Of a stretch of 64,000 bases of DNA, positions 6,477 to 63,747 are shown piece by piece. The notes beneath the pieces are model-generated. The model saw nothing but the letters and a program-made list of their open reading frames with translations, made no database searches and was not told the DNA's origin. Position 1 is the first letter of the stretch. The number at the start of each line of letters is the position of its first letter. The DNA comes from Sodiomyces alkalinus F11 (Eukaryota; Ascomycota; Sordariomycetes; Glomerellales; Plectosphaerellaceae), in NCBI RefSeq assembly GCF_003711515.1, contig NW_021167079.1, positions 6,256,385 through 6,320,384 of the forward strand, given 5' to 3'. Both the position numbers and the translations under genes were made by a program.

Positions 6477-6945
6477 TAATACGCCCTATAGCGTACTATA
6501 GGAACCGCCCTTTAAAGGGGGTATATCGTGAGAACCGCGTTCTACGGGGGTATACCGCGGGCACTAGGTACTACGGGGGTATACTATAAGAACCGCGTTC
6601 TACGGGGATATACCGCGGATACTAGGTACTACGGGGGTATACTATAAGAACCGTATTCCACGGGGGTATACTATAAGAACTGTATTCCACGGGGGTATAC
6701 CGTAGAACCGATATACCACGGGGGTACCTAGTAGGAACTAGGTATTACCGGGCCATGGTTAGGAAGCCGGAGTATCCCCGGGGTTTCCCCGTGGACATAT
6801 TAGTTTAGGGCTTCGCCCCTTCGTTTAGTAAAGATATCTTTATTACACCGTATTTTCTGTACCTAAAGGTCACCCCTTAAGAAAAAGCCTGGCTTATAGG
6901 TCCTATAGTACTGGCTAGTCAGGGATTTGCCGGTCAGGCATATTA
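6477..6945 (+). repeat. LTR B2, expanded by internal tandem units
   Basis: It is 469 bp against 353 bp for B1. The extra length lies at about 6500-6720, where a unit of roughly 45 bp (ACGGGGGTATACCGCGGATA followed by CTAGGTACT) is repeated. It is followed by the TSD GTTAC. Confidence 0.9.
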
Positions 6946-6950
6946 GTTAC

Positions 6951-8605
6951 TAAGATATCTAATTATCACGAAATAAACGATCCTACTTTCGATTTTAATA
7001 AGGCCGCTAGTTAGTTTAAGCGATAGCTCCGCGATAGCGAGACCGCCTTTATAGGAGACGACCCCGCTAATAAAGAACACGACGGGAACACGCCGGGAAC
7101 TAATACTACTCCTCTACCCGTTACTGTACCGGCACCTATCCCTACGGCTACCACCGTTTCTATCCCTATCGCTAGTATTATCTCTACTACTGCCTTTACC
7201 CCTATTACCGTCCCCGTCCCTCCTATAACCACGACGGGACCCGCGTATAACCCTAACCTGCCCCCGTATATAAATATTAACCTAGCCACGCTAATAGAGG
7301 AATAACTAGACGAACGCGTTAAATGGATAAAGGTATAGAACCACCGTAAGCGTAAGCTCGTGTACCTTACTAAGCTAGAGGCGGATACTACCGCCGCTAC
7401 TATTACTGCCACCGCCGCTACTAATTCTAACCTGGCCGATACTACCCACTATCGTATAGCCGAACCTCGACGTCGCGTTATAACCCCGGCGAGATCCTAG
7501 TATACCTATAATATATCCATAACGTCGTCTATACACGGATCCGCTACCTAGGCTAAGTTTAATTTCCCCCTGCCTAAATAGGATAGTATATCCTAGGCTA
7601 AGTATCGCACGTTTATCTAGGAGACTAACCAGCAGTTCGACCTAGATTCTTAATCCTTTTCTACGGACGCTACGAAGAACTACTTCGTTATATCGTGCCT
7701 CCCCCACTACCTTAAGGAACGCTAGCAGGCTAAACTACGATATAAGTACGATAGCGACTCTAATAGGGTTACCTAGGCCGCCCTATAGACCTAGCTATTC
7801 TATTAGGTTAACGATAATAATACCTGCCTAAGGGAGGTAGTAGTATAGATCCAGAGCGAGTCTATCTTATCCTAAAGATAGGGAGAGTCCTACGCTAAGT
7901 TTACATAACGGTAGGAAGCCCTAGAGTCAGAACTACCGGGCGAGCTCCTAGACTAGTGGAGGATTTAGATAGTGCTAATAAAGGTCCTTCCACCTATCCG
8001 GGACTATATAGTATCTATAGGGGTTCTTAAGGACTACTAGGATCTAGTCCCAGCCTATCGTAGGGCCGAGGCCTTAACTATTACTAATAGACTAGCCGGT
8101 ACTCGGACAGACTTCTAGTCCGCTACCTAATAACGCCGCCACCGCTCGCGTGCCCCTCCTTATGCCCCTCCTTATGCCCCTGCTTCTATCCCTATTTCTA
8201 CGTCTACCCCTACGCCTATACTAGCCTCTACCCCTAGCTACCCTATATGCCCTGGACCGTTATCGTACCTTAACTCTATCACTTACTATAATTATAACTA
8301 AAAAGGGTATTACGCTACTACGTGCCTTAGCCCTCGGGTATAGCGCTTAAGTAATAGTAACCCGAATACCTAACTGGTATCCACCTCTCGCCCTATAGTC
8401 GGCCGTGTTACGGGCGAGGTGCCCTAGGAATAACACCTACCTCGAGTAACCCCCTTTACTACTACTATACCGGTAAAGGCACGCGTTTCCCTTCGCTAAG
8501 GTAGGGAATAGGTATAGATATCGGCTCTCCTTAACGGAGGTGCCGATATTAACGTTTTAGATCGGTCCCTCTTAGGACCCAGTTAGGTTCCTAAGGGGTC
8601 CTTAG
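6951..8605 (+). pseudogene. Gag and protease start of element A
   Basis: After a short leader the frame reads as a gypsy Gag with a Pro/Thr-rich segment (about 7100-7260) and a Pro-Ala-rich hinge (about 8150-8240). A CCHC zinc knuckle at 8284-8325 reads Y-x2-Y-x4-Y-x4-C. The Cys and His codons are TAY in place of TGY/CAY, and only the last Cys (TGC 8323-8325) is intact. A protease-like segment NGGADINVLDRSLLG follows at about 8530-8575. The frame is cut by element C at 8605 and resumes at 29547. Many TAG/TAA codons make it non-functional. Confidence 0.85.
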
Positions 8606-21543: not shown

Positions 21544-21646
21544 TGTTACGGCCGGCCGCCTAACATGGACCAACCCCATGGGTACACTAGTGTATATCCC
21601 ACGGGACGGCCCTAGACGGGGAACAGCACAGTGTGACTCGGGGAGT

Positions 21647-21664
21647 CACGTGCTAAGTCACGTG
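21647..21664. promoter_or_regulatory. Paired CACGTG boxes in U3 of LTR G1
   Basis: CACGTG at 21647-21652 and 21659-21664, spaced by six bases, lie in the part upstream of the TATA-like site. The same pair occurs in LTR H1 (37259-37264, 37271-37276) and, with different spacing, in solo LTR J (38853-38858, 38865-38870). CACGTG is the palindromic E-box bound by fungal bHLH factors; use here is inferred. Confidence 0.5.
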
Positions 21665-21817
21665 TCATTAGGTACAGAGGTACTTAGTATACTATCCGGG
21701 ACGGACCGGGGTCGATTACTCCGACGAAGTGACTAATAAGTAATCGGTCACGATAGAATCACCTAGGCATAGCGACCACGTAAGGAATAGTCACTATAGG
21801 TAAGGAGGCACTATCAC

Positions 21818-21825
21818 TATATAAA
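21818..21825 (+). promoter_or_regulatory. TATA-like box of LTR G1
   Basis: TATATAAA lies about 40-50 bases upstream of the segment ATCGATTAA (21866-21874) that pairs with the primer site. This fits a transcript beginning near 21860, as self-priming would need. Confidence 0.45.
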
Positions 21826-22081
21826 CTAGAGTATTCTAGGTCTTACTTCTATTAGAGAATAAGATATCGATTAATCTAAGTCTTTACCTAGACTATTAGT
21901 CTACGCCTGACTCTACCTTATAAAGAAGACGCCTAGTCTTTACGACGTAATCATAATTAGACACTACGAATAATAGTTACTACTCTTTAGTTAGTATCCT
22001 CTTCTTATTTTAAACTAAAACCTTAACGCTAGTCCCTTATCGTCCGTTATACTATAGAGGACCGGAAGCCGTTATAATATT

Positions 22082-22090
22082 TTAATCGAT
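22082..22090 (+). promoter_or_regulatory. Primer binding site of G (self-priming type)
   Basis: TTAATCGAT, two bases after the LTR, is the exact reverse complement of ATCGATTAA at 21866-21874. Compared with A (TTAATCGCT pairing with AGCGATTAA), one base differs on both sides, so pairing is kept. Confidence 0.72.
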
Positions 22091-22119
22091 CCTGTTCGGT
22101 AAGCTAACCTTAATAGCTA

Positions 22120-24250
22120 ATAAGCAGTACGCCCGAAGCAGAAGCTACTTCGCCTAAGGAAGAAGAAGTCACTTTATCTGAAGAAGAATCATCGTCTGAA
22201 GAATCCAGTTCCTCCGACGAAGAGGAAGGACCAGAATAAACTTAATAAGACGACGAAGTAGCCAGCAATCACTCTTCTAATATATCGAATAATAATAACC
22301 GTACCACGAACGCTATAAGCACCGTAACGCCTACCACTACCACTAAAGGGAGTAACGACCTTTAGCAGATTCGCGATATAATTACTTAGCTTTAGGGGGA
22401 GAACACGACCCTAAGAGCTTAGCTAAACTATCCTAGAATCGGGGCTAAGTATAGATACCCTATACCCCCTAAGTACGACGGGACTTAAGGATAGCTTTAG
22501 AGCTTTATTACTTAGCTTAAAGGCTATCCCCTATTCTACTAGGATAGTATCTGTACGGAAGAAACTAAGGTACTCTATACAGCGGCACTCCTTATAGGAG
22601 ATATACACGAATAGTTCGAGTCTATCTATAAAGACTACCTAGAGAATATAGGAATAGAGATCCTAAGGAAGCCCGGGACCACGGTAATCTTCGAGAACTT
22701 CGACGTATTCGTTAAGAGACTTAACGCTATCTTCGGCTAGCCCGATAAGGAAAAAGTCGCGGCCGAACAACTAAGCTAGCTATATTAGACTAAGTTAGCT
22801 ACGGATTATACTATAAGATTCTAATAAATCTCGTTAAAGCTTAGCTACCCGGATAAGCCCCTTATAAATCGGTACTACTAAGGACTTAAGGAAGAAGTAA
22901 AGAACGAACTATACCGATTAGACTAACCTAAGACGTTTAGCGAATACACCGCGATAGTAATTCGTATCGATAACCGGAACTATAAATAACGCCGTTAGAA
23001 AAAGTATTAAATAAGCGTTCTATTCTACACGGTTAATTTAAAGAAGAAATAATCACACCCACGCTAGTTCGGAAATACCTTATATAGATATTATAGTAAA
23101 CCTATAAAGCTCGATAATATTAACCGATAGAGCGATAAGCAGGGTAAAAGGGATATAATAAAAGTTAAGTATTATAACTACGATAGGCTAGGTTACTACG
23201 CACGCGACTATTATAAGCCTAAGAAAGAAAGACCCTAGAAGGAAATTAACGCTATTAAATACCTGGAAATTTATAGGGATAAAATACTATACGTAAACCT
23301 CTATTAGGTAACCTACTACGATAACTATTATCTAGCACACTAATTAGGGAAAGACAAAGCTAGGTATTACCCTAAAAGACCCTAGAAGATACTCGTTATA
23401 GTATCTAGTAACGAGTACGATAATAATTATAGCCTTAAAATCCCCGACTAGGATAAGGATAAACTAGCTTTATAAACTATCGTAGAAATCCTTTAAAAAT
23501 ACGGATAAATAAAAAAAGAGGCTAAGGAATAGAAGCAGATCTTAGAAATCCAGGAGGGAGAAGATCGTGCCCGAAAAAGAATCGCTAAGCTCGAAGAGTA
23601 AGATTAGGAAACGGAGTCCGACGGAATCCCGGATAATAACACGAACTTCTAGTATTAATGTATAAAAGCAGCCGACCTAGTCGAGGAGGAAGCTATCTAG
23701 CTACGGATACTTAACTAGCTCGCGGAAGAACTATTAGGATAAACCCACTAAGTCTATTTTACTAAACTTAACCTTAGTAAAGCTTACCGTATAATACCAA
23801 TAAATACTAGCGGGAGATAGTAATAAGCTATACGCTAGCGACCTTACCGCGCTTAGGAAAACTAAGACACTCTTACCGACCTAATAACAAGCCTACGAGG
23901 ATCGGACGATTAACCACCTAGGCATAATTACTATAAGCACCGGTTAGACGAATACGATACTACTAGCTACGTAATACACGCTTCTAAGAAAATCCGATAA
24001 CTAGGATAAGACTAAAAAGCTTAGGAATCACGCTTCTAGACCCTCGATAAGCGCCTACGATAGATAGAACGGCTCTTAATCCAGTACGGGTTCTTAGATA
24101 AGGAAATATCCCTCGAATACCGAGCTAAACAGGTAAAAAACTAGGAGTATACTATTACTAGGAGTATATAAGAGGCACTTAATAGATATACTCTATAACA
24201 CGTAGTAGTATAGGGCACTATTATATTAGAATACGACTTAACGAATATTA
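22120..24250 (+). pseudogene. Gag of element G
   Basis: The frame probably starts at ATA 22120 (from ATG, followed by SSTPEAEATSPKEEE). It begins with a long acidic Ser/Glu segment (22160-22250). The capsid-like part follows, including RIGAKYRYPIPPKYDGT near 22440-22490 and KPGTTVIFENFDVFVKRLNA near 22670-22730. A zinc knuckle YYNYDRLGYYARDY (23170-23212) has all Cys and His positions turned to Tyr. A Lys/Glu-rich tail extends to about 24250. Frame is kept without indels; only RIP stops interrupt it. Pol follows in the -1 frame. Confidence 0.85.
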
Positions 24251-27200
24251 GATAAATATACTATTAGATATAGGCGTAGTAGGAAACTTTATCTTACTAG
24301 TAGCCGTGAGAAAGTTCTTTATTCCCTAGGTTAGAAAACACCTAGAAGAGGAGTATAAGATTACTCCGTATACGGGAAAGAACTAGTCCTACGAAGAAGT
24401 CGTTATTAACTAGGAGACTATACACCTTTAGGTTAAAATCTAGAATAAGACTAGAATAATAAAGTTCGATATATACGATATAGGTTATAAGGACGTTATC
24501 CTTAGTAAATTATAGTTTAACGAATAGAATCCCGATATAGACTAAAAGCTTAGCTAGCTCCGGTAGAGATTAGAGAGTAAGTAGGAGACTATAAAGGAAA
24601 CCTTACCCGATCCCGATATCCGTCGAAAATAGTAGAAAGACTTACCGATAAAGGAGCCTTAGGGAGACTTAGATAGCCGCTAGAAGTCAGAGACTAAGGC
24701 GAAGGAAGTACGGAAGACTTTAAGACAGTAGCGATGGCATAACTACTAACGCATAACTAATATTATTAAAGGAATCTACTAGATTATCTAAGCAGAAAAA
24801 GGACTAATAATAAGCGATTAGAATAGACTCGCTAAGGTATTACCAGAATACCGTAAATACGGAAAGCTATTTACCGAAAATCTAGAGACCGGATTACCGA
24901 AACACCGATACTATAATCATAAGATACCCCTAAAGGAAAGGATATACCTAAAATTCTTTTTAATTTACGGGCTAAACTAGAAAGAATTAGATACCTTAGA
25001 AGAATACCTCGAAGAGATACTAGTAAAAGGCTATATCAGAGTATTATAATTACCGGCAGGATACCCGATCCTATTTATACTAAAGAAAAATAGTAAACTA
25101 CGACTATATATCGATTATCGATAACTTAATAATATAACTATTAAGAACCGTTACCTACTACCTCTTATCTCGGAGATATAAGATTAGCTAGTTAGAGCGT
25201 AATAGTTTACGGCACTCGACTTAAAAGGAGCCTATAACTTAATTAGGATTAAGGAAGGAGAAGAGTAAAAGATAGCGTTTCGGATAAAGCGAGGATATTT
25301 CGAGTACCTTATTATACCTTTTAGACTAATAAATACGCCGGTATCATTCTAAACACTTATTAACAACGTCCTAAGGAAGTATCTAGACTACTTCGTTATA
25401 GTATACCTAGATAATATCCTAATCTTCTCTAAGATACTCGAAGAATACCGATAATATATTCACACAATCCTATAACTTCTATAAAACACCGACCTATTAG
25501 TTAAACCAGAGAAAGTTTAATTCTATATATAAGAAGTTAACTTTTTAGGTTATACGATACGACCGAATAAGATCTATATAGATAAGGCGAAAGTCTAATA
25601 CGTCTCTAAGTAGCCGCGACCCTAGAATATTCGTGATATTTAGTCCTTTCTCGGACTTATTAACTACTATTAACGATTTATTAAGGACTATAGTAAGATT
25701 ACTATTCCTTTAACTAAAGTAACTAAAAAGGGGCTCGACTTCGAATAGAATAAAAGAATAGAAGAAGTATTCTAAGCTCTTAAAGGAAGGGTTACCAGCG
25801 AACCTATCTTAGTAATACTAGACCCTAATAAAGAATACGAACTCGGAACAGACGTATCCGACTAGGCTCTAGGAGTATAACTCGGATAGCGCGACGTAGA
25901 AGGAAGACTACACCCTATAACCTTTATATCCAAGAAACTTAGTGGACTAGAACTTAGCTATTAAATCCACGACAAAGAGCTAATAGCTATTATCGAAGCC
26001 TTTAAAGAATAAAGACCGTATCTGTCAGGGATAAGACACCCGGTATAAGTCTACACGGATTATAAGAACCTCGCGTAATTCACCACTACTAAGGTTCTTA
26101 ATAAACGATAAATCCGATAAGCAGAATTCCTAGCCGAATTCAACTTCTATATTCAGTATATAAAAGGGAGCGAAAATAATCGTGTAGACGCACTCAGCCG
26201 ACTAGGGATACCTGACGAATCACCTAAACCGTAAGCTATACTCTAATAGGAAGGAGAAGCTCTTACTCTAAAGGACAGAGAGGTAAATAGTATTAATCGG
26301 ATAACCGATACTATATTTAAAGAAGCACACGCCTCGCCGATATATAGATATTAAGGAGTTTATAAAATATACCACCGATTACGATAATAATACGGCTATA
26401 CAGGAACTAAAGAACGAGTTAGGGACTTTATTCGTAACTACGATATTTACCAGAAAGTAAAGAGCAGCCGATATAAACCTTATAGACTACTAAAGCCACT
26501 ACTAGTAGTAGACAGACTATAGAAATCGATTATAATAGACTTCGTGATAGGATTTCTAGTATCTAAAGACCTAGTAACAGGAACCGCCTATAATAGTATA
26601 TTCGTAATCGTCGACCGATTCACGAAATATACTCTTTATATTCTATATATTAAAAACACTATAGCAGAAGAACTAGTAAGTATCTTTATCAACCGCCTAA
26701 TTAGGGATCACGGTATACCGAATAAAATTATCACGGACAGAGATAAGCTCTTTACTAGTAATTTCTGGAAAGCAGTTATAAGCCAGCTAGGAATAAAATA
26801 TAAGTATTCGATAGCGTTTCACCCTATAACGGACGGATAAACCGAAATCATAAACTAAGTCCTAGAATAGTACTTACGATACTACGTAGGGTACGAATAA
26901 GATAATTAGGTATAATACCTACCACTTATATAGTTTATATATAATAGCTTATTAAACGAGTTAATAAAGAAAACACTATTCGAAGCAAATTACGGATATA
27001 CCCCGATAGTATTTAGAAAACCTTTAGAAAGACTAGACGCACTAAGAGCGATAAAAATAGTTAAAAGCATAAAAAAACTACACGAAGAACTATAAACCGA
27101 CCTAGAGATAGTCAGAACACGAATAAGCGGATACGTAAATCAATCGAGGATTAAGGGACTAACCCTTTTAAGGGGGGACCGCGTCTACCTTATTCGTAAA

Positions 27201-27602
27201 AACATTAAAATATAACGACTAAGCGATAAATTGGATTTTAAAAAGTTAGGACCGTTTAAAATCCTAGAGAAAAAATCAGATACGAACTATATTCTATCAC
27301 TACCTCCGATAATACGGATATATAATAATTTCTATATTTCACTACTTAAACTAGCACTAAAAAACATAAAAATAATATAAGATAGAATCGTAGTCGATAC
27401 TAGCGATATATATAAAGCAGAACGAATCCTCGATTACCGAGAGACGCTAGACGGCACCGAATATTTTATAAAATAGAAAAATTACGACCACGGCGATAAT
27501 ATATAAGAACCTAAAGAAAACCTGATTAATTATAAGTAACTCCTAAAGTAATACCGATAGAATATTATTAGGACCCAGAACCGGACGCCGCGGTCTACGT
27601 AA
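24200..27602 (+). pseudogene. Pol of element G: protease, RT, RNase H, integrase, chromodomain
   Basis: It overlaps the gag end in the -1 frame. The protease site LLDIGVVGNFI is at 24261-24293 (family D-[ST]-G). RT includes KLRLYIDYRQLN-like sequence (about 25085-25125) and the palm IVYLDNILIFS (25398-25430, YLDD with Asp to Asn). RNase H reads TDVSDxALGV (about 25850) and TDYKNLA (about 26060). Integrase holds the best-preserved open stretch (26544-26840) with VIVDRFTKY, ITDRDKLFTSNFWKAVIS and FHPITDG. The chromodomain reads YKAERILDYRETLDGTEYF at about 27410-27470 with EPKENL after it. The frame ends at TAA 27600-27602, overlapping the antisense gene's stop. Confidence 0.9.
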
Positions 27603-28198
27603 AATTAATATCCGAAAATTCACCTATATCCTACGCTATTACCTAATTCTAATTAATTATATTAATAGCACTAGTAGCTTATATAGTGGCCACCGCCTCT
27701 GACTCGACCCGGCGGGCCTTTTCTTCCTCCTTCTCCACCTTCTCGAGCTCCTCTATATCGGTAAGGTCCTTACGAACTATTTCCACCCCCTTCTTCCGTA
27801 GTAAGCGATGAGTTCGACGAAGGCGGGATAAGCGGGCGAGGGCCTTGTGGAGTATCTCCTTAGTCCGCTCCTCCTCTTATTCGAGGCGCTTTAGCTCCTC
27901 GTTTATACGACCCGCTAGGAAGACGAGGGGGTAAGTAAATAGAGACTGAGCGGGAAGGCGAGGGCAGGAGCGTACTAGAAGATATTAGGATTCTAGCACT
28001 ATTATAAGAACAACCTAAGCGGAAACACGCCTAATAGCGAGCGATATCGTCTAGAACGAAGCACGGTACGTTCTTACAGGCATAACGGGTATAGGGGACG
28101 ACCTCGTAGCCTTAATCAGCGATAAGGGCAGAAACGGTTAATCGGTTTTTAGCGGAACGAGATTTAGGATAAGACGATTTCTGGACACGGTCGGATAT
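27595..28198 (-). pseudogene. Antisense spliced gene of element G: Zn2Cys6-like cluster plus coiled coil
   Basis: Exon 1 runs 28198-27976, from ATA read as a lost ATG. Its cysteine pattern at 28093-28004 has the spacing C-x2-C-x6-C-x8-C-x2-C-x6-C, where four of six positions are TAT (Tyr, from TGT) and two are still Cys. A predicted 61-bp intron (27915-27975) has donor GTACGC, a branch-like ACTTAC and acceptor TAG (CAG changed by RIP). Exon 2 (27914-27595) reads GRINEELKRLEx then LARLSRLRRTHRLLRKKG and DLTDIEELEKVEKEEEKA, a coiled coil, and ends at TAG 27595-27597. Spliced length is 181 codons including stop. Zn2Cys6 clusters bind DNA in fungal regulators; the role here is inferred. Damaged, so not functional. 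Confidence 0.65.
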
Positions 28199-28301
28199 AA
28201 TAGTTAGTAATAAAGAAGAAGAAAAACCTAAGGAACACTAACTAGGGAAAAGCGACCTATTTATACGACCGCTAGGATAACGCTTAGAAGGAGGGAGGTA
28301 A

Positions 28302-28837
28302 TATTACGGCCGGCCGCCTAATATAGACTAACCCTATAGGTATACTAGTATATATCCCACGGGACGGCCCTAGACGGGGAATAGTATAGGGTAACTCGGG
28401 GAGTCACGTGCTAAATCACGTGTTATTAGGTATAGAGGTACTTAGTATACCGTCCGGGACGGACCGGGGTCGATCACTCCGACAAAGTAACTAATAAGTG
28501 ATCCGTTATAATAGAATCACCTGGGCATAGCGACCACATAAAGAACAGTCACTATGGGTAAGGAGGCACCATCATTATATAAACCAGAGTATCCTAGGTC
28601 TTGCTTCTATTAGAGAATAAGATATCGATTAATCTAAGTCTTTACCTAGACTATTAGTCTACGCCTAACTCTACCTTATAAAGAAGACGTCTAGTCTTTA
28701 CGACGTAACTACGACTAGATACTACGAACGATAGTTACTGCTCTTTAGTTAGCATCCTCTTCTTATTTTGAACTAAAACCTCGACGCCAGTCCCCTATCG
28801 TCCGTTATACTATAGAGGACCGGAAGCCGTCGTAACA
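28302..28837 (+). repeat. LTR G2 (3' LTR)
   Basis: It is 536 bp and the pair of G1. It ends CGTAACA with intact CA and is followed by TSD GTTAC. Its 3' half is less RIP-mutated than that of G1, the reverse of the 5' half. Confidence 0.94.
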
Positions 28838-36250: not shown

Positions 36251-37153
36251 GGGTAATTATTACGAAGATATCCCTTTTAGTGATAGTAGTAGCACTCTAT
36301 ATCCGCTAAACGGCGTCTTTTCGGTTAATTCGGGGTTATCTTTATCTAGTGGAGGTTTACGTATCTTCTAGGGACGGGCTTCTTTTAGAACTACTACCGG
36401 CTTAGTTTATAGCTGCCGAATACTTAGACCGCCGCGATTACGAAGCCGATACCTTATCCTTATCTTCCGCCGTGTCTTTATTTCGAAGTGTCTTAGCCTT
36501 CTATACTATTAAATAAAGTTCGGTGTAAGTTTTAGGGGGTCTCTTAGCGATTATATAGTCGTGAATAGGCCGTTATAGCTTAATAATTATAAGCTATATA
36601 CGCTAGTTATCTTTAATAAGTATAGGGATCTTATTAAAGAATCAATTAATCCGGTTAAGAAATCAGTTATATTTCTCCTTATCTTTTTACTTAGTAGAGT
36701 TACTAAATAGTTAGTCCGCGGCGGTTAATATACGGGTGTTATCGTCGATAATGTATCCCGAAAAGAAGTTCTTTATTTCCTGCCACGTCGCTATAGAAGC
36801 TTTAGGCGTAGTAATTAACCGTTATTAGGCACGCTACCGCGACCTAATGGCCTAAGGAAGAGTATTACTAGCGAAATACACTTTCGTCTTATCGTTCTAA
36901 AAATTACCCGAATTAAGGTAAAAACGCTTTTCTAAGTCCTCGATAAACGTTTAGTACTAATCCTAGGATTAGCTATCCTATTTAGGGATAGGGTAGTCTA
37001 TCTTAGCTTAGTCGTTACGGGTTAGCGGTTAGTTACCCGGGTCTTATAGTATATCCGCGGTATTACTACTATCTTATAGAGCTTAGAGTTATCCGGCTAG
37101 GTAGTATCGCTCCTAGTCTAACCTAAAAGCTTTAACCTATTCTCGTAACTATA
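36251..37153 (-). pseudogene. Gag of element D, C-terminal part
   Basis: It contains a zinc knuckle near 36310-36260, reading ECYYYHxKGYLRNNYPELK, with Cys/His positions partly turned to Tyr. It is cut at 37153 by element H (TSD CTATA) and resumes at 45015. Confidence 0.78.
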
Positions 37154-37683
37154 TATTACGGCCAGCAGACCTAATATACACTAAGGATATACTAGTGTGT
37201 AACGTACTAGGGCGGTCAGCACACCAGGGCGTAACCAGAAGATGACTCAGGACGATATCACGTGCTAAGTCACGTGATGGATAACCGGTATAGTGTGCAC
37301 CCGCACAGGGAACCTATTAGCATAGGAGGATCACTAGGATCACTAAGGGTTACTTAGTCCGAGAAGTGATCCGGCGTGATCCCGGACCAGGAGATCACTA
37401 GGATACCCGTGATCCCGTAGGTATATATACCAGTATATCCTAGGTCTTACTTCTATTAGAGAATAAGATATCGATTAATCTAAGTCTTTACCTAGACTAT
37501 TAGTCTACGCTTAACTCTACCTTATAAAGAAGACGCCTAGTCTTTACGATATAACTACGATTAGATACTATAAATAATAGTTACTGCTCTTTAGTTAATA
37601 TTATCTGCTTATTTTAAACTAAAACCCCGACGCTAGTCCCTTATCGTCCGCTATACTATAGAGGACCGGAAGCCGTCGTAATA
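37154..37683 (+). repeat. LTR H1 (5' LTR)
   Basis: It is 530 bp. It shares the 3' portion from about 37432 (TATCCTAGGTCTTACTTCTA) with LTR G, while the upstream U3 part is different. Paired CACGTG boxes lie at 37259-37264 and 37271-37276. ATCGATTAA at 37470-37478 pairs with the primer site at 37686-37694. Confidence 0.94.
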
Positions 37684-37685
37684 TT

Positions 37686-37694
37686 TTAATCGAT
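37686..37694 (+). promoter_or_regulatory. Primer binding site of H (self-priming type)
   Basis: TTAATCGAT lies two bases after the LTR, with the same spacing and pairing as in G. Confidence 0.72.
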
Positions 37695-37723
37695 CCTGTT
37701 CGGTAAGCTAACCTTAATAGCTA

Positions 37724-40430
37724 ATAAGTAGTACGCCCGAAGTAGAAGCTACTTCGCCTAAGGAAGAAGAAGTCACTTTATCTGAAGAAGAATCATCGTC
37801 TAAAGAATCCAGTTCCTCCGACGAAGAGGAAGGACTAGAATAACCTTAATAAGACGACGAAGTAGCTAGTAACTACTCTTCTAATATATCGAATAATAAC
37901 CGTACCACGAACGCTATAAGCACCGCGACGCCTACTACTACTACTAGAGGAAGCAACGACCTTTAGCAGATTCGCGATATAATTACTTAGCTTTAGGGGG
38001 AGAATACAACCCTAAGAGCTTAGTTAAACTATCCTGGAATCGGGGCTAAGTATAGATACCCTATACCCCTTAAGTACGACGGGACTCGGGGATAGCTTTA
38101 GAGCTTTATTACTTAGCTTAGAGGCTACCTCCTATTCTACTAGGATAGTATCCGTACGGAAGAAACTAAGATACTCTATACCGCGGCACTCTTTATAGGA
38201 GATACGCACGAATAGTTCGAGTCTATCTATAGGGACTATTTAGAGAATATAGGAATAGAGATCCTAAGGAAGCCCGGGACCACGGTAATCTTCGAGGACT
38301 TTAATATATTCGTCGAGAGACTTAACGCTATCTTCGGCTAGCCTGATAAGGAATAAGTCGCGGCCGAATAACTAAGCTAGCTATATTAGACTAAGTTAGC
38401 TACGGACTATACTATAAGATTCTAGTAAATCTTATTAAAGCTTAGTATTATAACGGCTTCCGGTCCTTTATAGTATAGTGGACGATAGGGGACTAGTATC
38501 GAGGTTTTAGTTTAAAATAAGAAGAGGATATTAACTAAAGAGCAGTAACTATCGTTCGTAGTGTCTAGTCGTAGTTACGTCGTAAAGACTAGGCGTCTTC
38601 TTTATAAGGTAGAGTTAGGCGTAGACTAATAGTCCAGGTAATGACTTAGATTAATCGATATCTTATTCTCTAATAGAAGTAAGACCTAGGATATACTAGC
38701 ATATATATCTACGGGATCACGGGTATTCTGGTAATCTCCTGGTTCGAGATCACGCCGGATTACTTCTCGGACTAAGTGACCCTTGGTGATCCTAGTGATC
38801 CTCCTATGCTAATAGGTTCCTTATACGGGTGCACACTATACTGGTTATCCATCACGTGACCCGGCACGTGATATCGTCCTGAGTCATCTTCTGGTTACGC
38901 CCTGGTGCGCTGACCGCCCTAGTACGTTATAACCAGTATGTCCTTGGTGTATATTAGGTCTGCTGGCCGTAATACTTAGCTACCCGGATAAGCCCCTTAT
39001 AGATTATTACTACTAAGGACTTAAGGAAGAAGTGAAGGATGAACTATACTAATTAGACCGACCTAAGACGTTTAGCGAATACACTATAATAGTAATTCGT
39101 ATCGATAACCGGAACTATAAATAACGCCGTTAGAAGAAGTATTAAATAAGTATTCTATTCTACACGGCTAATTCAAAGAAGAAATAATTATACCTATACT
39201 AGTTCGGAAATACCTTATATAGATACTATAGTAGACCTATAGAGCTTGATAATATTAACCGATAAAGCGATAAGCAGGGTAAAAGGGATATAACGAAAGT
39301 TAAGTATTATAACTATAATAGGCTAGGTCACTACGCACGCGACTATTATAAGCCTAAGAAAGAACGACCGTAACGATAAGCAAATACGATTAAGAAAGAA
39401 AGACCCTAGAAGGAAATTAACGCTATTAGACACCTAGAAATTCATAGGGACGAAATACCACACGTTAACCTCTATTAGGTAACCTGCTACGATGATTATT
39501 ATCTAGCACACTAATTAGGGAAAGACGGAGCTAGGTACTACCCTAAAAGACCCTAGAAGATACTCGTTATAGTATCTAGTAACGAGTACGATAACGATTA
39601 TGGCCTTAAGATCCCTGACTAGGATAAGGATAAACCGGCTTTATAAACTATTGTAGAAATCCTTTAAAAATACGGATAGACGAAAGAAGAAGCTAAGAGG
39701 CAGAAGCAGGTCTTAGAAATCTAGAAGGAAGGAGATCGTACCCGAGGGAGAATCGCTAAACTTAAAGAATAAGATTAGGGAACGGAGTCCGACGGAACCC
39801 CGGATAATAACACGAACTTCTAGTATCAGCCTATAAAAGTAGCCGACCTAATTAAGGAGGAAACTATCTAGTTACGGATACTTGACTAGCTTACGGAAGA
39901 ACCCCTTAGATAGACCTACTAAGTTCGTTTTACTAAACTTAACTTCGATCACGCCTACTATAGGACACCCACGAATACTAGCGGGGAATAGTAGTAAACT
40001 ACACGTTAGCGACCTCACCGTGCTTAGGAAAACCGAGATACTCTTACTAACCTAATAATAAGCCTACAAGGATCGGATAATTAACCACCTAGGTATAACT
40101 ACTATAAGTGCCGGTTAGATAAATATAATACTACTAGCCGCGTAGTATACGCTTCTAAGAAAATCCGACAACTAGAATAAGACTAAGGAGCTTAGGAGTC
40201 ACGCTTCTAGACCCTTAATAAGCGCCTATAATAGATAGAACGGCTCTTAATCTAGTATAGGTTCTTAGATAAGGAAATATCCCTCGAATACCGAGCTAAA
40301 TAGGTAAAAAACCAAGAGTATACTATCGCTAGGAGTATATAAGAGGCACTCGATAGATATACTCTATAACACGTAGCAGTATAAGGTACTATTATATTAG
40401 AATACGACTTAATAAATATAAGATAAATAT
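37724..40430 (+). pseudogene. Gag of element H, interrupted by solo LTR J
   Basis: It opens with ATA 37724 and SSTPEVEATSPKEEE, as in G, then the acidic segment and capsid-like part. The solo LTR with its duplicated target occupies 38446-38979 (534 bp, a multiple of three, so the downstream frame stays in register). The zinc knuckle YYNYNRLGHYARDY at about 39305-39350 keeps its His (CAC). Pol follows in the -1 frame near 40400-40440. Confidence 0.84.
38446..38974 (-). repeat. Solo LTR J (H-family), inserted in gag of H
   Basis: The 529-bp sequence is the reverse complement of an H-type LTR, with TSD CTTAG at 38441-38445 and 38975-38979 and no internal element sequence. The empty target is visible in G at 22840-22844. 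It keeps many CA/TG dinucleotides and both CACGTG boxes (38853-38858, 38865-38870), so it is one of the least mutated pieces of the nest. LTR-LTR recombination is the usual origin. Confidence 0.93.
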
Positions 40431-43400
40431 ATTATTAGATATAGGCGTAGCAGGAAACTTTATCTTACTAGTAGCCGTGAGAAAGTTCTTTATTCTCTAA
40501 GTCAGAAAACACCTAGAAAAGGAGTACGAGGTTACTCCGTATACGGGAAAGAACTAGTCCCACGAAGAAGTTATTATTAACTAGGAGACTATACACCTTT
40601 AGGTTAAAATCCAGAATAAGACTAGAATAATAAAGTTCGATATATACGATATAGGTTATAAGGACGTTATCCTTAGCGAACTATAGTTTAATAAATAGAA
40701 TCCCGATATAGACTAGAAGCTTAGCTAGCTCCGGTAGAGATTAAAGAGTAAGTAGGAGACCACGAAGGAAACCTTACCCGATCCCGATATCCGTCGAAAA
40801 TAGTAGAAAGACTTACCGATAAAGGAGCCTTAGGGAGACTCAGATAACCGCCAGAAGTCGGGGACTAAAGCGAAGGAAGTATAAAAGACTTCGAGATAGT
40901 AGTAATAGTATAACTACTAACGCGTAACTAATATTATTAAAGGAATCTACTAGATCGTCTAAGCAGAAAAAGACTAGTAATAAGTAATCACGATAGACTC
41001 GCTAAGGTATTACTAGAATACCGTAAATACGGAAAACTATTTACCGAAAATCTAGAAACCGGATTATCGAAACACCGATACTATAATCACGAGATACCCC
41101 TAAAGGAAGGGATACACCTAAATTTCTTCCTAATTTACGGGCTAAACTAGAAGGAATTAGATACCTTAGAAGAATATCTCGAAGAGATACTAGTAAAAGA
41201 CTATATTAGAGTATTATAGTTATTAGCAGGATACCTAATCCTATTTATACTAAAGAAAAACGGTAAACTACGACTATATATTAATTATCGATAACTTAAC
41301 GATATAACTATTAAGAACCGCTACCCACTACCTCTTATCTTAGAAATATAAGATTAGCTAGTTAGAGCGTAATATTTCACGGTACTCGACTTAAAAAGAG
41401 CCTATAACTTAATTAGGATTAAGGAAGGAGAAGAGTGGAAGATAGCGTTTCGGACGAAGCGAGGATATTTCGAGTACCTTGTTATGCCTTTTAGACTAAT
41501 AAATACGCCGGTATCGTTCTAAACACTTATTAACGACGTCCTAAGGAAGTATCTAGACTACTTTATTATAGTATACCTAGATAATATCCTAATCTTCTCC
41601 AAGACACTCGAAGAATACCGATAATATATTCACACGATCCTATAACTCCTATAAAACGCCGACCTATTAGTCGAACTAGAAAAAGTTTAATTCTACACGT
41701 AAGAAGTTAACTTTTTAGGTTATACGATACGACCTAATAAGATCTGTATAGATAAGGTAAAAGTCTAATACGTCTCTAAGTGGCCACGACCCTAGAATAT
41801 TCGCGATATTTAGTCCTTTCTCGGACTTATAAACTACTATTAACGATTTATTAAGGAGTATAGTAAGATTACTATCCCCTTAACTAGAGTAACTAAAAAG
41901 GGACTCGACTTCGAATAGAACGAAAGAATAGAAGAAGTATTCTAAGCTCTTAAAGGAAGGGTTACTAGCGAACCTATCTTAGTAATACTAGACCCCGATA
42001 AAGAATACAAACTTAAAATAGACGTATCCGACTAGGCTCTAGGAGTATAACTTAGATAGCGCGATATAGAAGGAAGACTATACCCTATAGTCTTTATATC
42101 TAAGAAACTTAGTAGACTAGAACTTAACTATCAGATCTACGATAAAGAGCTAATAGCTATTATCGAAGCCTTTAAAGAATAGAGACTATATCTATCAGGG
42201 ATAAGACACCCGGTATAGGTCTACACGGATTATAAGAACCTCGCGTAATTCACTACTACTAAGGTTCTTAATAAACGATAGATCCGATAGGCAGAATTCC
42301 TAGCCGAATTTAATTTCTGTATTTAGTATATAAAAAGGAGCGAAAATAGTCGCGTAGACGCACTTAGCCGACTAGGGATACCTGACGAATCACCTAAACC
42401 GTAAGCTATACTCTAATAGGAAGGAGAAGCTCTTACTCTAAAGAATAGAGAGGTAAATAGTATTAATCGGATAACCGATACTATGTTTAAAGAAGTATAT
42501 TCCTCGCCGATGCATAGATATTAAGGAATTTATAAAATATACCACCGATTACGCTAATAATACGGCTATATAGGAACTAAAGAACGAGTCAGGGACTTCG
42601 TTCGTAACTACGATATTTGCTAGAAAGTAAAGAGTAGCCGATATAAACCTTACGGACTACTAAAACCACTACTAATAGTAGATAGACTATAGAAATCGAT
42701 TATAATAGACTTCGTGATAGGATTTCTAGTATCCAAAGATCTAGTAATAGGAACCGCCTATAATAGTATATTCGTGATCGTTAACCGATTCACGAAATAC
42801 ACTCTTTATATTCCATATATTAAAAACACTATAGTAGAAGAACTAGTAAGTATCTTTATTAACCGACTAATTAGGGATCACGGCGTACCGAATGAAATTA
42901 TCACGGACAGAGATAAGCTCTTTACTAGTAACTTCTGGAAAGCAGTTATAAGCTAGCTAGGAATAAAATATAAGTATTCGATAGCGTTTTACCCTATAAT
43001 AGACGGATAAACCGAAATTATTAACTAAGTCCTAGAATAGTACCTATAATACTACGTAGGGTACGAATAGAATAATTAGGTATAATACCTACTACTTATA
43101 TAGTTTATATATAATAGCTCGTTAAACGAGTTAATAAAGAAAACACCGTTTAAAGCAAATCACGGATACACCTTGATAGTATTTAGAAAACCTTTAGAAG
43201 GACTAGACGTATTAAGAGCGATAAAAATAGTTAAAAGTATAAAAAAACTATATAAAGAACTACGAACCGACCTAGAGATAGTTAGAATACGAATATGTAG
43301 ATACGCGAATTAATTAAGGATTAAGGGACTAACCCTTTTAAGGGGGGACCGTGTCTACCTTATTCGTAAAAACATTAAAATATAACGACTAAGCGATAAA

Positions 43401-43772
43401 TTGGATTTTAAAAAATTAGGACTATTTAAAATCCTAGAGAAAAAGTTACATACGAACTATATTCTATTACTACCTCCGATAATAAGGATATATAATAATT
43501 TCTATATTTCACTACTTAAACTAGCACTAAAAGACGTAAAAATAATATAAGATACGATTATAGTCGATACTAGTAACGTGTATAAAGCAGAACGAATCCT
43601 CGACTACTAAGAGACGCTAAACGGCACCGAATATTTTATAAAATAGAAAAACTATAACCACGGCGATAATATATAGGAACCTAAAGAAAACCCGATTAAT
43701 TATAAGTAACTCCTAAAGTAATACCGATAGAACACTATCAGGACCTAGAACTAGACGCCGCGGTCTACGTAA
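40400..43772 (+). pseudogene. Pol of element H: protease, RT, RNase H, integrase, chromodomain
   Basis: The motifs are those of G: protease LLDIGVAGNFI (40432-40464) and RT palm VYLDNILIFS (about 41570-41602). The integrase open stretch is at 42714-42956 with VIVNRFTKY (Asp to Asn) and IITDRDKLFTSNFWKAVIS. The chromodomain is at about 43575-43690. The frame ends at TAA 43770-43772, three bases after the antisense gene's stop (43765-43767). All damage seen is of transition type. Confidence 0.9.
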
Positions 43773-44339
43773 AATTAATATCTAGAAAATCACCTATATC
43801 CTGCGATAGGATTAGATTCCAGTTAATTATATTAACCGCACCCGCCACCCGCGCGTCGACTACCGCTTCGGACTCCTCGCGATCCGCCGCCTCCAAAGCA
43901 TTAAGGGACTTAAGGCTATAGGCCACTATAGTCACACCCTTAGAACGAAGAGACTCCCTCTAACGACGGATTCGGGCTAGACGGGCTAAAGACTCAGAAG
44001 CTTCCTTCTATACCTTCTCCAACGCGCGATAAGCAGATAGAAGGGAAGCCTCGGTCACCTCCTCCTCCGCTTTAAGACGCTCTATTTCCTTATTAATACG
44101 TGTTACTAGGGAGAGCGGTTAGTAAGAAGAAATAGCTCGCGGAGAACAGGAAAACACCTATAAGAAGATAAAGGGATACCTGAATTATCGCACGAGCGAC
44201 CACGATAAATATATTCCTTATAACGAGAGATACTCTTAATTATAAAGCACCGGAGGCCTTTCGACTCGTAAAAGGAATAAGGTATAACTTCTACTCTAGA
44301 AAGCTTAATAGTACGCGATAACTTAATTCGATACTACAT
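43765..44339 (-). pseudogene. Antisense spliced gene of element H: Zn2Cys6-like cluster plus coiled coil
   Basis: Exon 1 is 44339-44180 with an ATG still present (cat on plus, 44337-44339). EVIP precedes the cysteine pattern at 44279-44190 with the exact spacing C-x2-C-x6-C-x8-C-x2-C-x6-C. Codons are TAT, TAC, TGC, TAT, TAT, TGC, so two Cys remain and four are Tyr by G-to-A change. A predicted 74-bp intron (44106-44179) has donor GTATCC, the branch point TTACTAACC, and acceptor TAG. Exon 2 (44105-43765) reads VTRINKEIERLKAEEEVTEA, then LARLARIRR and SLKSLNALEAADREESEAVV, ending DIGDFLDINFT before TAG. Spliced length is 167 codons including stop. Splicing joins the two frames exactly, as in G. 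The product's role is unknown. Confidence 0.7.
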
Positions 44340-44484
44340 CTTACAAGAAAGCTACAACTTCTATATACAACCAGATATAATAATTAGCTATAAGAGAAAA
44401 GAAAAAAACCCGGGGGGTTATAAACCCGGGGTAGGCGACCTATTTATACGACTACTAGGATAGCGCTTAGAAGGGGGAAGGTAA

Positions 44485-45014
44485 TATTACGGCTAGTAGA
44501 CCTAATATACACTAAGGATATACTAGTATATAACGTATTAGGGCGGTTAGCGTACTAGGGCGTAACCAGAAGATAACTTAGGACGATATCACGTGCGAAG
44601 TTATATAATAGATAACCGGTATAGTGTGCACCCGTATAGGGAACCTATTAGCATAGGAGGATCACTAGGATTACCAGGGGTCACTTAGTCCGAGAGGTAA
44701 TCCGGCGTGATCCCGGACTAGGAGATTACCAGGACACCCGTGATCCCGTAGGTATATATACTAGTATATCCTAGGTCTTACTTCTAGTAGAGAACAAGAC
44801 ATCGATTAATCTAAGTCTTCACCTAGACTATTAGTCTACGCTTAACTCTACCTTGTGAAGAAGACGCCTAGTCTTTACGACGTAACTATGACTAGACACT
44901 ACGAACGATAGTTACTGCTCTTTAGTTAATATCCTCTGCTTATTTTAAACTAAAACCCCGACGCTAGTCCCCTATCGTCCGCTATACTATAGAGGACCGG
45001 AAGCCGTCGTAATA
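44485..45014 (+). repeat. LTR H2 (3' LTR)
   Basis: It is 530 bp, preceded by the purine tract AGAAGGGGGAAGG and followed by TSD CTATA. The first CACGTG box is intact and the second is destroyed. Its 3' half is better preserved than that of H1. Confidence 0.94.
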
Positions 45015-62072: not shown

Positions 62073-63747
62073 TTACGCTCTAAAGATCAGCTGCACTAGT
62101 TGAGCCACCATGTTACTGAGTTCCGAATCCTCCAGTCGGGCCAAATGCTTCTCGCGAAGAAAGAATCCTAGGACCAAAGCACCGGAGACCGTCATCAGTA
62201 AGCACAAAGCGAGCCAAGAGAAAACTCGTGCGAAGCTGACTACAGCGACAAGCCTCGGGCCTGCGGGAAACGCTCTGAACTCGCCCTGGGTTTCATTGAA
62301 GTTGCGGCTGAGCACGCTCCATGCGCCCAGGTAGCTCTGGCGGAGCAGGCCGTGGGTGTGGTAATCGATGTTGTCGTGCGAAGGCAGCTGAGACGCATTG
62401 GTGATGGCGATCATGGTCATCATGTCTGGCAGCAGCCAGATGGCCTCGCGGACCCACGGGTCCGGCGCGAACTCGACCTCTTCGATCGGAGTCTGGTCTT
62501 CAATGACGCGTCCGTTGATATACCTTGCACGACGACTCGTCGTCACGCCCGCGGTGAAGCTAACTCGTCCGATCAGGAAGCAGTTCTCGCTCGAGCCAGT
62601 AGCTCTAGCTCGTGGCTTGTAATAGGGCAGCGCGTCCATGTCGCCGAATATGGTGTTCGTCAGCTCCCTACACGGAGGGTCTGTAGCCTCATGGCGATCC
62701 AGCAACACTACGACCGTCTTGTTGCCCGAAAACCTGTACGGTGGCGGCGGCTGCTCCCAGTTGCTAGGAGCAGAACGTATGTCTGATCCGTTGTAGACAA
62801 AGCTGACTCCAGACGTGTAGTAGAAAAAGGGGTCGTCATTCACTAATGACAAGTCCCCGCCATTGAGCTCGTCCCACTCTTCTGCGCCCATCTCGTCCGC
62901 GGAACGGTACCAATGTATCCCGTGAATATCTATGCACGGCATAAGAACATTCACGACCACCGAGTCAGGGAGCAGACCGTCGTCATTCATGATATGGCGG
63001 CATCCGTTTCCAGTTACCGACCTGCCGTGTGCGTCCATGGTAGAAGGATCCGCCCAAGCAAGACCAGCCAACCCAACGCCGGTCCTGAGATGTGGTCTCT
63101 TGTCAAAAGATCCTTGGGCGTTATACCAATACCAGGCGCCGAGACTACCCGGACCGGGGGTGGTAGCAGAAACTGCGTTAACGGAGAGCCGAGACCCCGA
63201 CGTCCAGTTCACGGAACCAGTCAAGAGAGGGCCCGTGAAGGCTTGGATGAAGATAACGATAGTGAGAAGCGATATCATCAAGCTGTCTCGGCGAATTTCG
63301 ACTCCCAGTAGCAGCTTCCACCGAAGCATAGACGACACGCGCTCGAGCGTCAGGCTAGTAGGCTCTTTGGATAGCATATAGCGGGCGCAGCCCCAGAGGA
63401 CGGTGGCAGACCAGGTGCCAGCGACAGTCTTGATGACCACCAGCGCCACGGAGACGAGTGTCGTGATATCGCTGACTTTGAATAGCAGCCTGCCTTCTGT
63501 AATCCGTGAGCTGGTCTCATCTCCAGCACGATATCCGTGCAGTGCTAGGGCTATACAGAGCGCCACTGCAACGCAGCAACTTGCATGAACAGACAAGAGA
63601 AGCCACGCCCGCGAGATCTGGGTTAAAAACCACCGGTTGGTTTTTTGGGTCTGGCTGCAGACTAAGCGCCGTCACCTCCTGCTGTTGTTTTTCTGATTGC
63701 TGCCTCGAGCGAACGCTGTCTCCGTGGGGTTTCTGGCCTTCTGTCAT
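62073..63747 (-). CDS. Predicted fungal membrane protein with large extracellular loop, one intron
   Basis: The main open frame (63617-62073, stop TAA 62073-62075) has no ATG near its 5' end. An ATG at 63747 opens exon 1 (24 codons, MTEGQKPHGDSVRS...QQQE, 63747-63676). A 58-bp intron (63675-63618, donor GTGACG, acceptor ...TTTAACCCAG) joins it in frame to ISRAWLLLSVHASCC, giving 538 aa. Hydrophobic segments lie at about residues 26-52, 74-103, 135-156 and 481-511. The 320-residue loop between the last two has five N-glycosylation sequons (NWT, NGS, NKT, NAS, NET) and several Cys, so it is probably outside the cell or in a lumen. A short cytosolic C-tail is charged. I do not recognise the family; it resembles lineage-specific membrane proteins of ascomycetes. 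Codon use is ordinary and no RIP is seen. The intron model is a prediction: the donor is not the consensus and the branch site is close to the acceptor. Confidence 0.72.
63618..63675 (-). other. Predicted intron of the host gene
   Basis: It is 58 bp, phase 0, with GT donor and CAG acceptor. It is needed because the exon-1 frame and the main frame differ by one; the length is typical of ascomycete introns. Confidence 0.5.

Follow-up and report, generated by a model that had tools for sequence, protein, structure and literature searches.

Exchange of an antisense gene together with U3 among chromoviruses of Sodiomyces alkalinus, and the regulator it may encode

Why should a retrotransposon carry a spliced gene on the strand opposite gag-pol, between the chromodomain and the 3′ long terminal repeat (LTR)? 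The question is raised by a stretch of Sodiomyces alkalinus F11 DNA (64,000 nucleotides of contig NW_021167079.1, hereafter the window) that holds two chromoviruses, G and H, each with such a gene. According to the original prediction, the gene encodes a small nuclear DNA-binding protein that perhaps acts on the element's own LTR or on target choice. We find that the gene and the U3 region of the LTR are inherited together, and that U3 regions carry arrays of short repeats beside the sense promoter; these independent signs support the proposed tie to the LTR. We consider it probable that the element encodes its own regulator, a dimer whose cognate sites lie in the element's U3; this protein would regulate the sense promoter, and its gene would be exchanged with those sites as a cassette.

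H is bounded by LTRs at 37153–37683 and 44484–45014 and G by LTRs at 21546–22073 and 28304–28830 (all plus strand), the G 3′ LTR having a U3 type unlike that of H. Their antisense genes run on the minus strand, from start column to stop, at 44378–43738 in H and 28198–27568 in G. We compared the two elements by transversions, a measure that is blind to repeat-induced point mutation (RIP). Across gag-pol, in 200-bp bins, they differ by 0.000–0.016 (0.035 in one bin), and in R-U5 by 0.01; the values are 0.20–0.25 in the antisense gene, 0.24 in U3, and 0.11 in the strip that holds the polypurine tract (PPT) and the antisense TATA box. The divergent stretch starts at the upstream boundary of the sense TATA box and stops close to the antisense gene's 3′ end, and the PPT and antisense TATA box, which lie between U3 and the gene, remain alike. 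Because the two LTRs of each element match along their whole length (531 bp at 91.0% in one element, 529 bp at 90.2% in the other), the difference between the cassettes predates insertion. Read from these alignments, G and H share a single backbone (~0.5% transversions) on which cassettes made up of antisense gene and U3 have been exchanged.

The host genome (43.4 Mb in 22 contigs) holds long matches to the H and G regions, 24 and 29 respectively, with more distant lineages besides; protein queries from other fungi scored 142 and 148 places, each exon being tallied separately. Nine more copies with a pol flank lie 0.4–2.3% from G in pol, L068, which is truncated, being the exception at 5.4%; in the copies tested, R-U5 of the same LTR is at most 2.0% from G. 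L068 is a G2 copy, and on its pol side stands a second LTR, with an H-type U3 (L094, 41–520). Among 25 copies (300 pairs), the similarity of two genes follows that of their U3s (rho 0.78, 0/2000 permutations), and the corresponding values against pol are −0.03 for the gene and 0.02 for U3. This sample excludes copies without a fetched pol flank and five of the 20 loci L101–L120 (L107 and L110–L113), and for part of the copies the pol comparison spans only ~0.5–1.1 kb. In 52 of the 300 pairs pol differs by less than 1%, yet gene similarity is below 0.25; L115 and L116, for example, differ by 0.09% over 1078 nt of pol and have a gene similarity of 0.07. No fewer than four lineages, each deeply diverged from the others (H, G, P represented by L114 and Q by L116), sit on one pol at 0.28–0.65% transversions. 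The comparison indicates that gene and U3 move as a unit, independently of pol. The excluded L107 and L110–L113 have related antisense genes on a different, diverged backbone (pol transversions ~0.15).

A swap of this kind could arise if the template were switched once close to the end of pol and first-strand transfer at R then took its normal course. Such a model predicts that R-U5 tracks pol, a signal that proved weak (rho 0.20, 44/1000) and that we did not retain; against the gene, rho is 0.16 (78/1000). That R-U5 tracks neither clearly also suits a different explanation, in which the protein, a DNA-binding factor, serves some other purpose (for example integration targeting, capsid/RNA handling or host-gene control), host factors bind to the arrays, and gene and U3, which lie within ~100–300 bp of each other, travel together through adjacency at the 3′ end of the RNA. 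We consider this explanation unlikely, largely on the evidence of the arrays.

An array was scored where a 7-mer occurs at least three times, counting both strands, in the 130 nt of U3 that adjoin the sense TATA box, and was taken as significant where at most two of 100 dinucleotide shuffles reach the observed count. From 84 copies we set aside four whose U3 was incomplete in the stretch retrieved and two with a U3 below 200 nt. Of the remaining 78, 43 have such a 7-mer and 36 of those pass the shuffle criterion; controls gave 1/78 in distal U3, 0/78 in R-U5, 1/78 and 1/78 in the gene, and 1/29 in pol. The repeated 7-mer differs between most cassette types. H1/H2 carry GGATCAC, six times in L024; K carries GTGAATA, five times in L077; P and R both carry ACGCTCC at four sites; the Q copy L116 has five ATGATCC sites, with a RIP-like ATAATCC in L117; and L109 has GTGTTTA four times. 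Each of these stands at 0/300 shuffles, and J, with three GCTTACC sites, at 9/300. In the 5′ LTR of H, five GGATCAC sites, at 37328 (+), 37337 (+), 37366 (−), 37376 (−) and 37409 (−), span 37328–37415, six bases ahead of the sense TATATATA at 37422–37429, and the 3′ LTR has three, at 44659 (+), 44707 (−) and 44740 (−). Arrays occur on the diverged backbone as well (GTAAGCA five times in L107, GTGAATA three times in L111). Pairs of CGG/CCG were considered as a general site and dropped, as they show no type-wide excess over a first-order Markov expectation.

Two features of U3 fit the view that its repeats serve host factors. One is CACGTG-N6-CACGTG, which we take to be a host factor site (E-box) and which is present in six of six inspected U3s, as also in both G LTRs (21647/21659 and 28405/28417) and the H 5′ LTR (37259/37271; the H 3′ LTR has a CACGTG at 44590). 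The other is that the G types are without an array. Set against that view, the arrays differ by cassette type within one host and stand beside the sense TATA box, and P and R, which have a common exon-1 loop (FRNNKA), retain sites while the remaining U3 has diverged: three sites are in the same place and identical (21/21), whereas 38/92 bases agree outside the four L114 sites, of which the fourth is not retained at its position in L120. H2 and H1 (L011) agree at 40/42 bases within sites and 56/78 outside; K shows no site excess against M (13/35 within, 33/85 outside) or W (17/35, 29/85).

Is there a gene at all? We fetched 64 copies and aligned the 60 with a match to the cysteine/tyrosine pattern described below (L028, L066, L072 and L080 were left out). 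The start column, 44378 in H and 28198 in G, is ATG in 12/60 rows and ATA in 48/60, including both H and G. A TATAA[A/G]TA box lies 67–70 nt ahead of it, as TATAAGTA in 30/60 copies and TATAAATA in 27/60, so that 57/60 rows have either form; H and G have TATAAATA, at 44441–44448 (between the PPT/3′ LTR and the start) and 28258–28265, both minus strand. Exon 1, which contains the cluster, extends over 44162–44378 in H and 27976–28198 in G, and exon 2, with the coiled coil, over 43738–44105 (including a tail) and 27568–27914 (all minus strand). Between them lies a phase-1 intron, 44106–44161 in H and 27915–27975 in G (minus strand). It had been predicted in both elements, and in G it stands as described (61 bp, GTACGC…TAG). 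In H its length and position had to be revised: the donor homologous to that of other lineages sits 18 nt downstream, which replaces the proposed 74 bp with 56 bp, with a donor decayed to AT, a TAG acceptor and a branch-like TTACTAACC. The donor column is GT in 51/60 rows and AT in nine, H among them, the acceptor column is AG in 58/60, and 53/60 introns have a branch-like motif. The H stop had likewise been placed too early, at TAG 43767–43765; this column is CAG in 12/60 rows, and the common stop column, TGA/TAA in 58/60 rows, lies 27 nt beyond (TGA 43740–43738 in H, TAA 27570–27568 in G). In other fungi, three gene models (P0007, P0008 and P0012) continue straight through an intron at this position, and 7/126 relative proteins have the SSL-S/T-K/R-I/V junction that splicing here would produce. 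Cassette Q (L116, L117) is seemingly intronless, with cluster and coiled coil in one frame and a last cysteine spacing of 7.

The alignment bears the marks of a coding sequence. Among eight representative copies (28 pairs, which are not independent), gaps are divisible by three in 23/23 cases in exon 1 and 37/37 in exon 2, as against only 10/49 in the intron. Columns with any transversion number, by codon position, 27/98, 21/99 and 53/99 in exon 2 and 33/73, 27/72 and 39/72 in exon 1; in the intron they are 32/53. Constraint on exon 2 is clear. On exon 1 it is far weaker between lineages but present within a lineage: between G1 and G2 this exon differs by 0.001, 0.002 and 0.024 at the three codon positions, with 0.174 in the intron. 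H1 and H2 show the same trend (0.007, 0.005, 0.042) but are weaker evidence because their intron is low too (0.015). The conserved open reading frame that was predicted for this region is present, and, as these patterns indicate, the spliced antisense gene is under selection. They also speak to the idea that the functional product is an antisense RNA that triggers silencing, the protein being secondary. Antisense transcripts may feed small-RNA silencing, as portions of a review on plant elements describe (PMC7264820); the frame-preserving gaps, the codon-position bias, the conserved splice sites and the conservation of the protein across many fungi make this idea very improbable.

The clusters of H (44190–44279) and G (28004–28093), both on the minus strand as predicted, have Cys or Tyr at six places with the same 2-6-8-2-6 spacing; two cysteines are left in each, and the other four positions in H are Tyr. 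All lost cysteines in the two elements are TAY codons. Across the 60 rows, Cys occupies the six columns in 15, 4, 50, 7, 31 and 20 rows, and the remainder are Tyr. That only Cys or Tyr is read here is partly forced by the pattern-based choice of rows; the split by sequence context is not. Cluster codons that follow G (CAC on the opposite strand) are 95 Cys to 4 Tyr, those after T (CAA) 10 to 159, those after A 2 to 27 and those after C 20 to 43. Within the elements (22074–28303 and 37684–44483), CAC is kept at 23–24%, the least depleted CA triplet in G and H alike, and CAA and CAT at 2–4%. The tyrosines are there because RIP hit the Cys codons in a context-dependent way, in agreement with the earlier proposal of RIP-hit TGY codons. 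The same process could be turned into an objection, namely that RIP yields many TAY codons and the pattern is a chance or RIP artefact without a gene. All six cysteines are present in two of 60 rows (L024, an H2 copy, and L069, a J copy), the frame is conserved, and relatives have intact clusters; these relatives refute the artefact, to which we assign a negligible probability. In L114, L115, L118 and L120, nine residues separate the third and fourth cysteines.

The less mutated relatives that the prediction called for were found in other fungi, intact clusters included. Zn2Cys6 domains (PF00172) follow the pattern C-x2-C-x6-C-x5-12-C-x2-C-x6-8-C, and the window clusters fit this spacing with C or Y at the six places; the relatives have x8-10 between the third and fourth cysteines in 82/126 cases, exactly x8 in 58/126. 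The suggested check against the Zn_clus profile succeeded in part, with matches at E ≤ 0.1 in 24/63 relatives (best 1.7e-4) and none in the Pfam scan of exon 1 of the window family. The UniRef name Zn(2)-C6 fungal-type is given to 7/120 relatives, among the matches listed. A predicted model of one relative has zinc-cluster helices and a coiled coil, and a profile of 63 relatives run against solved sequences returned only chance coiled-coil matches. Together with frame conservation and the relatives, the model supports the predicted gene with its zinc-cluster-type domain, intron and coiled coil, and the product is likely a protein of zinc-cluster/coiled-coil type. A search for the relatives in genomic context confirmed no contig match (0 of 11 pattern matches in viral_contigs, 0 of 25 in genome_contigs), and we do not assign them to LTR elements.

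These observations lead to the following scheme. The gene would be transcribed from the conserved antisense TATA box and spliced, giving a homodimeric Zn2Cys6/coiled-coil protein predicted at ~190–200 residues; the dimer would bind the repeated U3 sites of its own element and regulate the sense (gag-pol) promoter, and gene and U3 would be swapped as a unit between near-identical elements. The quick change of exon 1 between lineages, with constraint within them, fits a DNA specificity that changes along with the sites. As to the sign of regulation, we tentatively favour repression, because the sites abut the sense TATA box and Pfam scans found no Fungal_trans or activation domain. Activation is somewhat less probable; in its favour, zinc-cluster proteins commonly act as activators, and the C-terminal tails have an acidic, aromatic character. 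Several points weigh against the scheme as a whole. Gene and U3 are adjacent, so their co-inheritance needs no functional match; 19 of the 36 array copies are H, which leaves the copies far from independent, and the G1/G2 types have an array in 0/26 copies. H and Q have unlike genes but almost the same motif (GTGATCC and ATGATCC), GTGAATA is common to K, M and W, and taken overall the sites do not recur significantly at fixed positions between types (1875/20000 random sets reach the recurrence). In the cluster itself, all 15 H1 copies have Tyr at four of the six positions, position 2 is without Cys in all 26 G1 copies, and the best Zn_clus score in ten scored relatives, 18.1 bits, is under the 21-bit cut-off, as are the others.

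The remaining features of the window concern the backbone and its surroundings. The chromodomain end of pol in H (43461–43760, plus strand) lies tail-to-tail with the antisense gene; it is a decayed piece that matches Pfam Chromo at E 3e-4 (21.1 bits, cut-off 25.1), and a decayed Integrase_H2C2 piece is just under its cut-off (E 2.5e-5). The reverse transcriptase piece has no Pfam match in three frames. Within H, an inverted LTR-like copy (38443–38931) is 91–92% complementary to both H LTRs. Inverted repeats of 622 bp (4–625 and 7478–8099; 86% complementary, 6.9 kb apart) enclose 29-bp tandem GGGGGTATAC units at 1227–1349 and 6488–6755. At 62073–63671 (minus strand) there is a 532-codon stop-to-stop open frame of higher GC content that is not RIP-depleted and has no Pfam family at E ≤ 5.

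How does this locus compare with known systems? An antisense gene between pol and the 3′ LTR is known already, from plants and from Boty. In contrast to the expectation that no such gene had been formally described, Boty-like elements of Botrytis cinerea have an additional antisense gene, brtn, reported by Zhao et al. 2011 (Virology 417:248) as cited in PMC7264820, PMC8365987 and PMC4227169. It resembles the window gene in lying antisense between pol and the 3′ LTR of a chromodomain Ty3/gypsy element in a filamentous fungus; cassette exchange and arrays are not mentioned in the passages of these papers that cite it. The zinc cluster and intron may already be in Zhao et al. 2011. Among B. cinerea proteins, P0020 (on 12 contigs) is related to the window protein, and we do not equate it with brtn. 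Beyond brtn, our literature search, which covered few subscription papers, turned up neither antisense zinc-cluster genes of fungi nor cassettes of gene and U3; what is new here is the exchange of antisense gene and U3 cassettes on one backbone, and the U3 arrays.

The antisense open reading frames of plant elements (Grande gene23, RIRE2, Retand and PvRetro13) have the same position and orientation as the window gene; according to parts of a 2020 review (PMC7264820), at least that of Grande is driven by an upstream promoter of its own and has a nuclear product, the encoded proteins do not clearly resemble any others, and what the antisense extra genes of LTR retrotransposons do is unknown. Unlike these, the window gene has a recognisable zinc cluster and coiled coil. 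For one such gene, the comparative evidence now points to a domain, to a mode of action and to candidate target sites, and the question therefore reduces to a simple binding test. HBZ of human T-cell leukaemia virus type 1, described in part in PMC3736048, works alike: it is a spliced antisense gene from the 3′ LTR side whose product is a nuclear dimerising factor that tunes the sense LTR. HBZ is a basic leucine zipper protein and the window protein is of zinc-cluster type, and the parallel is functional with no claim of homology. We know of no exchange of HBZ with LTR types. The fungal Zn2Cys6 factors GAL4, LAC9 and PUT3 resemble the window protein in cluster spacing, predicted fold and the coiled coil after the cluster; by comparison the window protein is short, Fungal_trans was absent in scans, and its candidate sites are GTGATCC- or ACGCTCC-like instead of simple CGG pairs.

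The closest logic is that of the lambdoid phage immunity regions, in which regulator gene and operators are swapped as one cassette on a common backbone. The antisense gene and U3 are likewise exchanged as a unit, with sites that are putatively cognate. There is no shared ancestry, and repression or heteroimmunity in G and H is drawn by analogy. Heteroimmunity would mean that an antisense zinc-cluster repressor and operators at the sense TATA box let resident elements silence newcomers of the same type, with escape by a template-switch cassette swap; we regard this as speculative and somewhat unlikely. If true, it would let several deep cassette lineages coexist on one backbone through swaps. 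If the cassette logic itself holds, it would bear on copy-number control and the origin of element subfamilies, and these chromoviruses would be retrotransposons with a modular exchange of regulator and operators as in temperate phages.
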